The notes under the pieces: model-generated
What the model was told of the DNA's origin: nothing
What the model saw: only the letters and a program-made list of their open reading frames with translations
Database searches by the model: none
Shown here: piece by piece, positions 22,274 to 29,396 of the stretch
How positions within the stretch are numbered: position 1 is the first letter of the stretch
How the letters are laid out: each line of letters opens with the position of its first letter
From: Mycolicibacterium boenickei
GTDB taxonomy: Bacteria; Actinomycetota; Actinomycetes; Mycobacteriales; Mycobacteriaceae
NCBI RefSeq assembly: GCF_010731295.1
Contig: NZ_AP022579.1
Span: 4,836,001-4,900,000, forward strand
Length of the DNA: 64,000 bases
Direction of reading: 5' to 3'
Position numbers and translations under genes: made by a program

Positions 22274-23110
22274 ATGTATTTGACTACAGAACAATTGGCC
22301 ATTGCCAATCAGGCGGTCGTCGAGACCTTCGAGCAAACCTGCATCGCCTGGCAGGCCATCCCCCATTGGAACACCTGCGATCCGGGAGGGAGCCGGGTGC
22401 GCAACGACGTGGTCAACAATCCAGGCTTTCTGAAAGTCCGGTCCCGGCAGGTGAGTTTCAAAGTCACCCTCGTGCAGACCACTGCACCCACACTCGATTC
22501 TCTGATCGCCGAGGTGAATTGGGCGGCCACGAAACTCGCCCGCAAAGTCGACAACAAAGTCATCAGATCGCTTCGCATCAACGTGCCGAATGCCAACAGG
22601 ATCTGGTTTCCTGCCCTATCCCCCCAGTATCTGTTGAACAACCTCATCGACGCCCGGGCGAAGATCGAGAACGCGGGTTACCGGGCCCCGTCCTGTCTGA
22701 TCACCAATACCAAGGGACTCAAGGAACTCAGCAATCTCAAGGCCGGCTATCCCATCACCAACGAACTTCTGGCCAGCGCACACGTCAACTCACTGCACCG
22801 GGCTTCCCAGCTCTACCGGGAACTGACGGTGGTCGATTCGAAAGGCACGGATGACACGACTGCGCCGAAACAGTCGGGCACCGTCATGCTGATGATCGGG
22901 CGGCGCCAACTCATCGCGCATGCGGGTGCCCCTGAAGCGTCCTCGGGCGAAGAGCCGGTAGACCTCGCCATCGCCGTCGCGCCGAGCCTGGAGGTACTCG
23001 GAGAGACCAGCTTGTCGAGGATCGAGATGGCCGTCCGGATCCGGTTCGCGCTGCGGATCAAGGACAGGCGAAGCCTCGCGGCGCTGTACGGGAAGCCGCG
23101 CAAGAAGTAA
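22274..23110 (+). CDS. HK97-fold encapsulin-like shell protein
   Basis: The 278-residue protein shows the encapsulin order of elements. An N-terminal helix contains ANQAVVETFEQTCIAW. The strand KVRSRQVSFKVTLVQTTAPTL (split at 54-74) and the helix WAATKLARKVDNKVIRS (83-99) match the segment that ends in the ...EDRTIFEG helix of mycobacterial encapsulin. GYRAPSCLITNTKGLKEL (135-152) with GYPITNELL after it matches the A-domain helix and strand of the known protein. The C-terminal PVDLAIAVAPSLEVL and RIRFALRIKD strands match the final P-domain strands. No cyclic-nucleotide-binding domain is visible, unlike family 2B encapsulins. The gene opens an eight-gene run with the isoprenoid synthase six bases downstream. 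The ATG follows a GGGGG-containing leader. Fold call is fairly strong; assembly and cargo are inferred. Confidence 0.78.
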   Translation: MYLTTEQLAIANQAVVETFEQTCIAWQAIPHWNTCDPGGSRVRNDVVNNPGFLKVRSRQVSFKVTLVQTTAPTLDSLIAEVNWAATKLARKVDNKVIRSLRINVPNANRIWFPALSPQYLLNNLIDARAKIENAGYRAPSCLITNTKGLKELSNLKAGYPITNELLASAHVNSLHRASQLYRELTVVDSKGTDDTTAPKQSGTVMLMIGRRQLIAHAGAPEASSGEEPVDLAIAVAPSLEVLGETSLSRIEMAVRIRFALRIKDRRSLAALYGKPRKK

Positions 23111-23115
23111 TCCCC

Positions 23116-26428: not shown

Positions 26429-28662
26429 CCTGCGTGTCGACGCCCGCGTCGTGCGCCCCGCGCCCGACTGTGGTCGTCCTCGGTGCAGGCATCGCCGGCC
26501 TCACCGCGGCACACGAACTGGCCGACCGTGGTTTCGACGTCACGGTGTACGAGCCGCGCCAGGACGAGCGCAACGGTCTCGGTACCGCGCCGGCCGGAAT
26601 CCATCCCCCGGTCAAGCTCGGCGGCCTTGCCGCATCCCAGTTCTCGACAGTGGGTCCCTTCGGCGGCAGCCCGGCGCAACTGCGTCCGTTCCCTGAACGA
26701 AGAGGTGACCCACGCCCGCCCGAGTGCGCGGTCGCCGGGGAGCACGGCTTCCGCTTCTTCCCGGCCTATTACCTGCACATCTGGGATCTGTTCCAACGCA
26801 TCCCCGTTTACCAGCGCACGGGTGCCGGCGACTGTCAGCCGACCGCACGCACCGTCATGGACAACGTGCGCCGCGTCGTAACCCAGGGCACGACAGTGGA
26901 CGGCAAGCCGTCCTTGGTGTTCCCCCGCGAATTGCCGCGCAGTCTGGCCGAATTCTTCGGCGTTCTGCGTCAGCTCACCCAATTGGGTTTCACCGCAAAC
27001 GATGTCGCCGCCTTCCAGGGTCGGCTACTTCGCTACCTGGTCACCAGTCCGTTGCGCCGGGGGCGGGAACTGCAGAACCTGTCCTCGTACGACTTCTTCG
27101 TCGGGCACGACAACGACACGACCTGCCAGCCGGTGTCCTACTCACCGAACTTCGACGCGCTGCTGCGCGAAATGCCTCGCGTGCTGGCCGCATTCGACCC
27201 GAAGTGGGGTGACGCCCGTACCAACATCACCACATATCTGCAGCTCTACCTGAACATGGACCGGCGCGACGACAAGGCCGACGGCGTCCTCAACGGCCCG
27301 ACCACCGAGGCGTGGTTCGACAACTGGTATCGGCACCTCGTCTCCCTCGGCGTCCATTTCGTCCACGGCGAGGCGGCGCAACTTCTACCGCCATCGATCG
27401 ACCCGGGGCAGCCGCCGCATCTGAGGCCGCGGGTGCAGATCGTGCTGACCGACGGTACCCTGCTGAACCCCGACTACACCGTGGTTGCCGTGGATGCTCC
27501 TGCGGCCGAGCGGATCACGGCGGCACTGCGAGCCGCCGGCACCGGCGGGACCGTGGCCGGCCTGGACGGTTTCACTACCTCCGCGCCGCCTGCCGACGGA
27601 CCGCTGCAGTCGCAGGGCACCCGGACGACGACCCCGCGCGACCCGTACTGCATGGACGAGTTGGGACGTGTGCCCTGGGACCGGTTCCAGACGCTCAGTG
27701 GCATCCAGTTCTATTTCGACACGGAGTTCCAGCTGATCCGCGGGCACATGTACTACGCCGGAACCGAGTGGGCGCTGTCCTCGATCAATCAGCACGGGCT
27801 GTGGGAGAACCGGCCCCGGCTGGCCCGCGACGGATACGTCTCGGTGCTCTCGGTCGATATCGGCGATTTCAACGCGCCGTCCCGTCACCTGGTCGACGAG
27901 CTGGGCCGCGGCCGGGCAGCCCGGGATTGCACGGCCGACGAGATCGCCGCCGAGGTGTGGCGGCAGATCGTCACCGCCCTGACCAACGACGCCGGCAACG
28001 TCGCGGAGGAACTGCTGCCATGGCCTGTCTGGTACGCGCTGGACCGAGGTCTGGTGATGGCCGACGGGCCCGGCCAGGGCCGTGGCCGGGTTGTCCGCAA
28101 CGAAACCCCTTACCTGGTGCCGATCATCGGCGACTGGGACAACCGGCCCGGCGGTGACCCGTGGAATCCGCACGGCACGTCGTGGAGTTTCGCCCCGACC
28201 GAGCAATGGTGGCTCGAAGACCTCGAGCGGCGTCAGGTCTGGCAGGCCCGCCACGGCGGCTACCAGGTGCACCACAACTCGGTGGTCTTCGCAGGCACCT
28301 GGGCCAGGACGTTCACGCGGATGACGTCGATGGAAGCGGCCTGCGAATCGGCCCGGCACGCCGTCAACGCCATCCTTGATCACTATGTGTGGGTGGGATC
28401 CGGCGGCCTCGACCGCCGCGAAAATACGGTACTCCCTTGGCTTTTCCCGTACGGCTTTCTCGATCAGGGTCTCTCCAGCCCGATCCGGATGCCGACGCCC
28501 GCCGGCGACTACTGCTACATCTTCGACGTCGAGAACCGCGAACCGGCCGATACCCGGGCGCTGCGCATCCTCGACTCCGAGTACTGCATGCAATCACTGC
28601 CCCATCCGTTGGACACCATTGCCGCACCCGCTGTCCCGACACCGCCAGGAGCCCGACCATGA
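26425..28662 (+). CDS. FAD-dependent oxidoreductase, phytoene-desaturase / hydroxysqualene-dehydroxylase-like
   Basis: The 745-residue flavoprotein opens with a Rossmann fold: GAGIAG at 20-25 and acidic residue Glu43 for the FAD ribose. The GEHGFRFFPAYYLHIWDL block near residue 105 is typical of the carotenoid desaturase and HpnE-like group. Near the C-terminus FAGTWARTFTRMTSMEAACES is the second FAD-binding element, in which a Met-Glu-Ala-Ala run faces the flavin. The protein is about 200 residues longer than standard phytoene desaturases; the extra length is spread through the middle and a Pro-rich end. It is coupled by ATGA overlaps on both sides. Likely reaction: dehydrogenation or isomerisation of a long isoprenoid. 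The exact substrate is unknown. Confidence 0.85.
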   Translation: MTCVSTPASCAPRPTVVVLGAGIAGLTAAHELADRGFDVTVYEPRQDERNGLGTAPAGIHPPVKLGGLAASQFSTVGPFGGSPAQLRPFPERRGDPRPPECAVAGEHGFRFFPAYYLHIWDLFQRIPVYQRTGAGDCQPTARTVMDNVRRVVTQGTTVDGKPSLVFPRELPRSLAEFFGVLRQLTQLGFTANDVAAFQGRLLRYLVTSPLRRGRELQNLSSYDFFVGHDNDTTCQPVSYSPNFDALLREMPRVLAAFDPKWGDARTNITTYLQLYLNMDRRDDKADGVLNGPTTEAWFDNWYRHLVSLGVHFVHGEAAQLLPPSIDPGQPPHLRPRVQIVLTDGTLLNPDYTVVAVDAPAAERITAALRAAGTGGTVAGLDGFTTSAPPADGPLQSQGTRTTTPRDPYCMDELGRVPWDRFQTLSGIQFYFDTEFQLIRGHMYYAGTEWALSSINQHGLWENRPRLARDGYVSVLSVDIGDFNAPSRHLVDELGRGRAARDCTADEIAAEVWRQIVTALTNDAGNVAEELLPWPVWYALDRGLVMADGPGQGRGRVVRNETPYLVPIIGDWDNRPGGDPWNPHGTSWSFAPTEQWWLEDLERRQVWQARHGGYQVHHNSVVFAGTWARTFTRMTSMEAACESARHAVNAILDHYVWVGSGGLDRRENTVLPWLFPYGFLDQGLSSPIRMPTPAGDYCYIFDVENREPADTRALRILDSEYCMQSLPHPLDTIAAPAVPTPPGARP

Positions 28663-29396
28663 CGTACCCACCTGACTACAGCCAGCAGCTCTATGCGTAT
28701 CTGCAGGCGTGGCGCCAGTTCCTGGAGCCGCTCACCGCGATGGCCGCGATGGCTGCCGGCATGGCGCCCCCACCCGGCCCATGGGCCGGGCCCGGCACGT
28801 ATCCCATGCCCGCGGCACCGGGCCTGCTGCCCTATCCCACCGCATACGCAGCGCCACCGCCCGCCGCGCCGGTTGCCCCGTCCCAGGTGCCTGCCGCCGA
28901 CTACACGCAGCAGCTGGTCGGATATCTGCAGGGCTGGCGTCAGCAGCTCGAGCAGATGACGGGCACCGGTGCGCCATCGTCGTACGGGAGCGACAACGCA
29001 TCTCCGGGACGCCGGCCGGTCCCACCGGACCGAGCCGATGCCGGCAGAACCTCCCCACCGGATGACGGCCCCGGCAGCCTCTATCCCAAACAGGGCACGA
29101 CGTCATCCGTCGTGCCACCCAAGTACGAAGCCATGAGGCCCGCGAATGTGGGCGGCAGCCAGATACCCGGCGAGCAGGTCCTCCAGCCGGCCGTGGTGGC
29201 GCGCGGACCGGTGATCGCCGCAGCGCCGATCACCGAACTCGGCCGGATGCGCCAGCGTGACGTCAGTGCGCCGCGTGTGACGGGCACCCCGGCCTCAGCA
29301 CGGGTCGCCACGCCGAACGCGACGATGCGCGCGGTACCCCAGTCGAACTTCGCCGGGCTCGCGGACCGCGCGCTGAAGCACGTCGAAAGAGGCTAA
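28659..29396 (+). CDS. Pro/Ala-rich disordered protein with duplicated Tyr-Gln-Trp motif (candidate scaffold or loading protein)
   Basis: I recognise no family for this 245-residue protein. Two copies of a 21-residue motif are clear: residues 6-26 and 81-101. Both follow the pattern DY(S/T)QQL-x-x-YLQ-x-WRQ-x-LE-x-x-T, with 13 of 21 positions identical. Between them lies a 50-residue Pro/Ala/Gly/Tyr linker. The rest (about 102-245) is low complexity and probably disordered, ending in a short helix (FAGLADRALKHVERG). Short conserved helices joined by disordered linkers are what one expects from a scaffold or multivalent adaptor that binds one partner several times. It is the last gene of the operon, coupled by ATGA, and its stop overlaps the convergent aspS stop by three bases. 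Confidence 0.85.
   Translation: MTYPPDYSQQLYAYLQAWRQFLEPLTAMAAMAAGMAPPPGPWAGPGTYPMPAAPGLLPYPTAYAAPPPAAPVAPSQVPAADYTQQLVGYLQGWRQQLEQMTGTGAPSSYGSDNASPGRRPVPPDRADAGRTSPPDDGPGSLYPKQGTTSSVVPPKYEAMRPANVGGSQIPGEQVLQPAVVARGPVIAAAPITELGRMRQRDVSAPRVTGTPASARVATPNATMRAVPQSNFAGLADRALKHVERG

Follow-up and report, generated by a model that had tools for sequence, protein, structure and literature searches.

Does a capsid-like gene lying beside isoprenoid genes in Mycolicibacterium boenickei mark a protein compartment, and if so of what kind? We addressed this question in a 64,000-nucleotide stretch of the genome (contig NZ_AP022579.1, positions 4,836,001 to 4,900,000; here called the window), where a first-pass annotation made from the sequence alone had described an eight-gene operon (22274..29396) joining an encapsulin-like shell to isoprenoid enzymes. 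All eight genes, here g1 to g8, are present on the plus strand, but the conserved unit comprises nine, the annotation having omitted an upstream gene, g0, for a protein of 1429 residues. We think it rather more probable than any contrary view that the locus builds a protein nanocompartment housing an isoprenoid pathway, with g8 as its scaffold and loader. We read the locus in this way because of its gene set, the fixed order and co-inheritance of its genes, fusions of g7 to g8 that keep internal start sequences, and the predicted fold of the shell protein.

17913..22202, plus strand: g0, 1429-residue protein with AAA/STAND-type ATPase, GAF and class III nucleotide-cyclase domains (Pfam; upstream of the shell gene in 42/42 loci)
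21597..21941, plus strand: g0 nucleotide-cyclase catalytic domain, residues 1229-1343 (Pfam PF00211 stretch)
22274..23110, plus strand: g1, 278-residue protein with a predicted HK97 shell fold
23116..24297, plus strand: g2, trans-polyprenyl diphosphate synthase, predicted to be GGPP (geranylgeranyl diphosphate)-synthase-like (PF00348)
24294..24749, plus strand: g3, conserved 151-residue protein (conservation over 37 loci)
24746..25012, plus strand: g4, 88-residue protein, its linker variable and its C-terminal R-W/F-L-R conserved (relatives' C-termini)
25009..26031, plus strand: g5, 340-residue protein, weakly CrtC-, tocopherol cyclase- or DUF2804-like (weak profile matches)
26024..26428, plus strand: g6, 134-residue protein, weakly SCP2-like (weak profile matches in relatives)
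26425..28662, plus strand: g7, 745-residue FAD-dependent oxidoreductase (Pfam FAD families)
28647..28651, plus strand: Shine-Dalgarno sequence AGGAG, 7 nt upstream of the g8 start (sequence)
28659..29396, plus strand: g8, 245-residue protein rich in Pro, Ala and Gly and bearing two amphipathic repeats; putative scaffold/loader (repeat profile; g7 fusions)
28674..28727, plus strand: g8 repeat 1, DYSQQLYAYLQAWRQFLE (sequence; repeat profile on relatives)
28899..28952, plus strand: g8 repeat 2, DYTQQLVGYLQGWRQQLE (sequence; repeat profile on relatives)
29073..29084, plus strand: GSLY, a possible variant of the relatives' [PA][KR][ST]L[FY] motif (sequence; strict motif absent from the window g8)

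The genes are closely packed. After 71 bases between the end of g0 and the start of g1, there is a 5-nt gap at g1/g2 and an 8-nt overlap at g5/g6, and the remaining five of the seven junctions within g1 to g8 (g2/g3, g3/g4, g4/g5, g6/g7 and g7/g8) are four-base ATGA overlaps. ATGA at most junctions had been reported correctly; the accompanying statement that gaps and overlaps are of six bases or less holds at six junctions and fails at g5/g6.

The shell protein

The g1 protein is predicted with high confidence to have the HK97 fold, as the first-pass annotation had supposed. Its model agrees with that fold as defined by an N-terminal helix or arm, E-loop, P-domain spine helix and A-domain, its best-ranked structural relatives are encapsulin shell proteins, and it aligns with M. 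xanthus EncA over nearly the whole chain (1.9 Å over 234 residues, 16% identity). Viral predicted structures match the model too (best E 2.7e-12). Family 1 encapsulins are described in PMC8346489 as having an N-terminal helix in place of an extended N-arm, and the g1 model resembles them in such a helix (residues 5-22, with g1 residue 1 paired with EncA residue 10), in its compact fold and in its length.

In sequence, by contrast, g1 lies outside PF04454, the Family 1 model: g1 of the window had no Pfam match, and one of 36 members of its family matched PF04454 weakly (E 0.11). The locus also differs from Family 1 in its many enzyme genes, and none of the Family 1 cargo proteins listed in section 7 of PMC8346489 (DyP, ferritin-like and others) was found among the scanned operon proteins. 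No NCBIfam family 2 shell model matched g1 or appeared among the families listed for the 36 members, whereas such a model gives 495 bits for the Family 2A shell of this genome; nor did the Pfam scan recognise, in the 278 residues, a cyclic nucleotide monophosphate (cNMP)-binding domain, which Family 2B shells carry as an insertion in the E-loop, in agreement with the earlier remark that this shell lacks one. For Family 3, whose PF05065 shells belong to peptide natural-product clusters, one of the 36 members matched PF05065 weakly (E 0.049) and no peptide-synthetase genes were recognised in the operon. Family 4 proteins are truncated A-domains of about 100 residues, and g1 aligns with the full-length fold. 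Set against the catalogued families, g1 is Family-1-like in predicted structure and unmatched by the sequence models of Families 1, 2 and 3. A large published encapsulin survey began with known shell sequence families (PF04454 for Family 1; PMC8346489). It would probably have passed over the g1 shell, because the fold is predicted but the tested sequence signatures are absent.

With g1 included, the window genome is predicted to encode three HK97 shells. A separate, true Family 1 (PF04454) shell (L079, G000:C1:2238435-2239187) stands beside a gene whose product resembles a DyP peroxidase and has SLAIGSLKGTPQ at its end. The Family 2A shell is encoded at G000:C1:3591948-3592835 (L127).

Distribution and synteny

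At a threshold of E 10, a protein collection yielded 467 shell homologues. Among the 120 listed, source names, where given, were hypothetical or uncharacterized, except for P0080 ('General secretion pa...'). Across 396 sampled genomes of the genus, the shell was found in 66 (window genome included), the g7 flavoenzyme in 65 and both in 64. The three cases with one alone are contig-end or borderline: the contig of G255 ends inside g2, G384 has a shell fragment of 41 residues running off the contig start, and the shell match of G106 (E 6.6e-4) covers query residues 8-45 and has an internal stop. A phylum-wide sample gave shell profile matches in 6 of 396 genomes, all in the window's genus and the window's own among them, and no phage, plasmid or confirmed viral-contig relatives were found. 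One metagenome-derived homologue (P0069, 54% identity) is labelled Solirubrobacteraceae; it possibly comes from outside the mycobacteria, or reflects a binning error.

For synteny we used 42 loci (L002, L003 and L033-L072), chosen from the 65 other genomes with a shell match. Every locus had the full set g0 to g8, in an unvarying order and all on the same strand (weakest single match E 1.8e-4). The downstream flanks formed eight clusters at a blastn threshold of E 1e-30, which could split divergent copies of one context, and aspS adjoins the block in only ten loci. Because the order is fixed in 42/42 loci and the flanks fall into eight clusters, the block seemingly persists as a unit across genomic settings.

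Mean pairwise identity, calculated over 37 of the 42 loci after five with doubtful ends were dropped, was 0.77 for g2, 0.75 for the g7 core, 0.74 for g3, 0.70 for g0, 0.69 for g5, 0.65 for g6, 0.53 for g4, 0.50 for the shell protein g1 and 0.37 for g8. The g5 of L069 was located by tblastn and not extracted, leaving a g5 set of 41/42. The g0 proteins of L061 and L062 are of odd length (887 and 1808 residues as extracted) and possibly frame-disrupted or mis-extended. At a further locus (L126, G322:C1) the shell matches in two frames (query 1-44 and 46-272) and may be interrupted; the other eight genes match.

The g8 repeats and the g7-g8 fusion

Two short amphipathic segments (consensus DYxQQLFxYLQAWRQYLEQ) occur in the g8 protein together with an extended region rich in Pro, Ala and Gly, and relatives also have tail motifs; in the near relative L002, Pro makes up 18% of g8, Ala 15% and Gly 10%. 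The repeats reported earlier in this Pro-rich protein are real, since their profile matches g8 in 42/42 relatives, with two copies in 37. Elsewhere in the operon the repeat occurs only in the 19 g7 frames that carry g8.

These 19 frames run through g7 and g8 without a stop. The two genes are split in the window genome and separate in 22 of the 42 relatives, including L059, which was left out of alignment A7. The remaining locus, L055, has an N run before g8 and is called neither fused nor separate, having been counted as separate in a first tally. All 19 fused loci keep a Shine-Dalgarno sequence and an ATG at the junction (GGAGG with 7-base spacing in 17). As a control, a Shine-Dalgarno sequence precedes only 2 of 327 other in-frame ATGs of the fused frames, in which GGA makes up 14% of Gly codons. 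On a tree of g2 and the g7 core, the fused or separate label changes seven times, at least five of them forced by well-supported branches, with the direction of change unpolarised; leaving out L055 gives six changes, four of them forced. The reading frames and start signals predict that free g8 is made in the cell and, in many species, g7-tethered g8 as well.

The beta-carboxysome scaffold CcmM offers an analogy. It is described in PMC8580825 as yielding tethered and free forms of a repeat-bearing scaffold (M58 and M35) from one frame with an internal ribosome-binding site, and similar tethered and free forms are predicted here for the fused g7-g8 relatives. There are also differences: the g8 repeats are segments of about 20 residues, whereas those of CcmM are Rubisco-small-subunit-like modules. 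The shell here is also HK97-like rather than of the bacterial microcompartment (BMC) type, and g7 and g8 of the window are split.

Tails with the strict pattern [PA][KR][ST]L[FY] are present in 27/42 g8 proteins, against 0.04 expected from shuffles, a comparison uncorrected for kinship. Classical loading peptides have a GSL core, quoted as TVGSL in section 7 of PMC8346489, which the g8 tail motif resembles; we take this resemblance as a lead only.

Enzymes and small proteins of the block

The first-pass annotation had named a polyprenyl diphosphate synthase (g2), a CrtC-like protein (g5), an SCP2-like protein (g6) and a phytoene-desaturase-like flavoprotein (g7). The synthase is confirmed: g2 matches PF00348 (E 1.6e-59) and has the two Asp-rich motifs of a trans-polyprenyl diphosphate synthase, DDIED and DDLLN, both invariant in 14/14 alignment rows, the second ending in N rather than D. 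Its best relative in the PDB is a geranylgeranyl diphosphate synthetase (1wmw, E 2.1e-60; next 4e-45). Only 10-25 residues precede the first conserved segment in 42/42 loci, a difference, judged by length and not by predicted disorder, from the disordered N-terminus of 50-100 residues that marks the prenyl transferase cargo of Family 2B.

The flavoprotein assignment of g7 likewise holds, with matches to NAD_binding_8 (PF13450, E 1.2e-8), Amino_oxidase (PF01593, E 2.1e-7) and DAO (E 6.2e-8). A single-sequence search of the PDB with g7 mostly reached many flavoproteins in the region of the FAD-binding motif (best E 0.0017), with borderline matches at 477-535. Distant relatives of g7 are proteins of about 600 residues in other genera of the class. 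In 18 loci with such relatives, a prenyl synthase match lay nearby in five (four in the genus, one outside), and g1, g3 to g6 and g8 were detected in none at E 0.01. The window genome also has a distant g7 paralogue (L121 8282-10066, G000:C1) with an apparent Tat-type signal sequence, about 4 kb from a polyprenyl synthase gene.

The other two assignments are weaker. Relatives of g5 match DUF2804 weakly in 14/15 cases (best E 0.018) and tocopherol cyclase weakly in 5/15 (best E 0.014), and a DHNWG segment is invariant in 15/15; g5 of the window itself reaches no curated cut-off, matching only DUF2804 (E 0.11) in Pfam and, far below its cut-off, Rv3169_fam (E 0.01). Among 16 relatives of g6, eight match SCP2 (PF02036, best E 0.0018) and six Alkyl_sulf_C, with DUF3022 (two) and TraK_C (one) at similar E values, but g6 of the window has no family match. 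The likeness of g5 and g6 to the CrtC/tocopherol cyclase and SCP2 groups thus lies in weak profile matches of their relatives, the window proteins being below curated cut-offs. Searches of the PDB with g3, g5 and g6 profiles gave nothing significant.

Neither g3 nor g4 had any Pfam or NCBIfam match at E 1. The C-terminus of g3 is mostly RPEGFA, and that of g4 is RWLR or RFLR in 41/42 relatives, its terminal Arg being kept across CGA, AGA and CGG codons and its Trp replaced by Phe in 5/42. This codon pattern hints at constraint on the protein but is given no evidential weight here. The possibility that g3 and g4 end in loading peptides, which the g4 terminus behind its variable linker resembles, was considered and set aside, as the terminal codons overlap the Shine-Dalgarno sequence of the next gene.

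The upstream gene g0

The g0 protein matches AAA_16 (E 2.5e-29), Guanylate_cyc (E 3e-8) and GAF (E 1.6e-6). The metal-site Asp and the Asn/Arg pair of the cyclase are kept in 40-41 of 41 relatives. What we take, from an alignment by eye, to be the position of the usual substrate-specifying Lys is Asp in 40/41. Judged by these residues, g0 may be an unusual nucleotide cyclase.

Proposed mechanism and what weighs against it

Under the compartment reading, some 60 or more copies of g1 would assemble into an icosahedral shell enclosing g7, and probably g2 and others, by way of g8. The g8 protein would be both scaffold and loader, its repeats (probably helical) binding shell or cargo, and free g8 together with tethered g7-g8 would set the amount of flavoenzyme loaded. 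Within the shell, the product of g2 would be a prenyl diphosphate of C20 type. A hydrophobic isoprenoid would be desaturated, oxidised, hydrated or cyclised by g7 together with g5, with g6 as its carrier. The role of the compartment would be to keep a poorly soluble or reactive intermediate confined. Expression or activity of the system may be controlled by g0 via a cyclic nucleotide.

Several points weigh against this proposal. The assembly of g1 and the choice of its cargo are postulated from the genes and the predicted fold, and a profile comparison with the genome's own Family 1 shell found no sequence link (hhalign probability 1.7%). The best NCBIfam match of g1 is a Cas5 model (E 0.0044; 16.7 bits, with the cut-off at 111.5), an identity that we reject, as the score is far below the cut-off and the match was seen in 1/36 members. 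There is kinship among the 19 fused loci, their internal start may have been inherited from a split ancestor without being used, and an AlphaFold2 model of the fused g7-g8 of L041 had a pLDDT of 37.6, too low for a fold prediction. The window g8 has GSLY instead of the strict tail motif. The identities of g5 and g6 are weak and g3 and g4 match no family searched, so the pathway chemistry is inferred. Nothing in the operon was recognised as a prenyl-acceptor enzyme, a terpene cyclase or a head-to-head synthase, and the pathway is therefore incomplete on paper. Overall, the compartment interpretation of the first-pass annotation is partly supported.

Alternative explanations

Two alternatives survive best, both of them unlikely though well short of negligible. 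In one, g1 would be a domesticated capsid protein that encloses nothing, forming a lattice, partial shell or oligomer by which the enzymes are arranged at a membrane or lipid droplet, while g8 serves as a phasin-like coat or a scaffold for a condensate. The amphipathic repeats of g8 and the richness of the L002 protein in Pro, Ala and Gly would suit such a role, as would the place of the shell among the least conserved operon proteins (0.50, against 0.74-0.77 for g2, g3 and g7) and the failure to see a loading peptide common to the enzymes. Less easily accommodated are the full-length HK97 fold predicted for g1, with its Family 1 N-terminal helix and compact layout, and the encapsulin shell proteins at the top of its structural relatives. 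In the other, the locus would encode an encapsulin with a single true cargo, for example g7 with its g8 tail, the products of the other genes being cytosolic. Fusion to the g8 tail is confined to g7 (19/42), and the g8 repeat is in none of the other operon proteins; conservation of the whole block in 42/42 loci, on the other hand, favours a joint function, although it does not show co-encapsulation.

Far less probable is a co-transcribed operon of mixed function, with a capsid gene that an old prophage left behind as a passenger. The HK97 capsid is itself a phage protein, and viral predicted structures do match the g1 model, but none of the eight neighbouring genes tested was recognised as a phage gene, the searches for phage, plasmid and viral-contig relatives were empty, and shell and flavoenzyme have been kept together in 64 sampled genomes.

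Family 2B, in which a shell gene is described with polyprenyl transferase or terpene cyclase cargo (PMC8346489 and PMC12407261), is like this locus in that shell and prenyl diphosphate synthase genes adjoin. In NCBIfam, g2 scores best on the family 2 cargo prenyl transferase model, although its 181 bits lie far below the cut-off of 450 and barely exceed the score for IdsA (178.7). We nevertheless reject a Family 2B encapsulin that has lost its cyclic-nucleotide domain as the least credible reading of all, given that neither that domain nor any family 2 shell-model match was recognised, and in view of the greater structural distance of g1, the short g2 N-terminus, and the extra genes g3 to g7 and scaffold g8 of the window locus.

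Other features of the window

Elsewhere in the window, neighbouring genes on the minus strand (7607-13617) encode a circularly permuted ATP-grasp/Alpha-E protein and a transglutaminase/DUF2126 amidoligase protein. Near this pair lies a sulfolipid-addressing (SfLAP) gene (13730-14467, plus strand).

Significance

HK97 nanocompartments as such are already known, and so is the pairing of shell and prenyl synthase in Family 2B (PMC8346489 and PMC12407261). What appears new is the shell clade, the occurrence of a Family-1-like architecture in this neighbourhood, the number of genes conserved together and the nesting of the scaffold. Among the matches listed in searches of openly licensed papers, no title or abstract described this shell or operon. 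More tentatively than we propose the compartment itself, and with the balance tilting slightly towards doubt, we suggest that the locus may represent a fifth class of HK97-fold nanocompartment. It would lie outside the known family sequence models and house a whole multi-enzyme isoprenoid pathway, with a Pro-rich scaffold in enzyme-tethered and free nested forms, a carboxysome-like logic in a virus-derived shell, and possibly a nucleotide-cyclase switch.

If g1 assembles, mycobacteria would gain a third kind of HK97 protein organelle. If the proposal is true, this could be a natural HK97 shell for a series of enzymes that act in turn, its scaffold occurring on its own as well as joined to cargo, and cargo stoichiometry in virus-derived compartments would become directly testable. 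It would also point to a mycobacterial isoprenoid yet to be identified.

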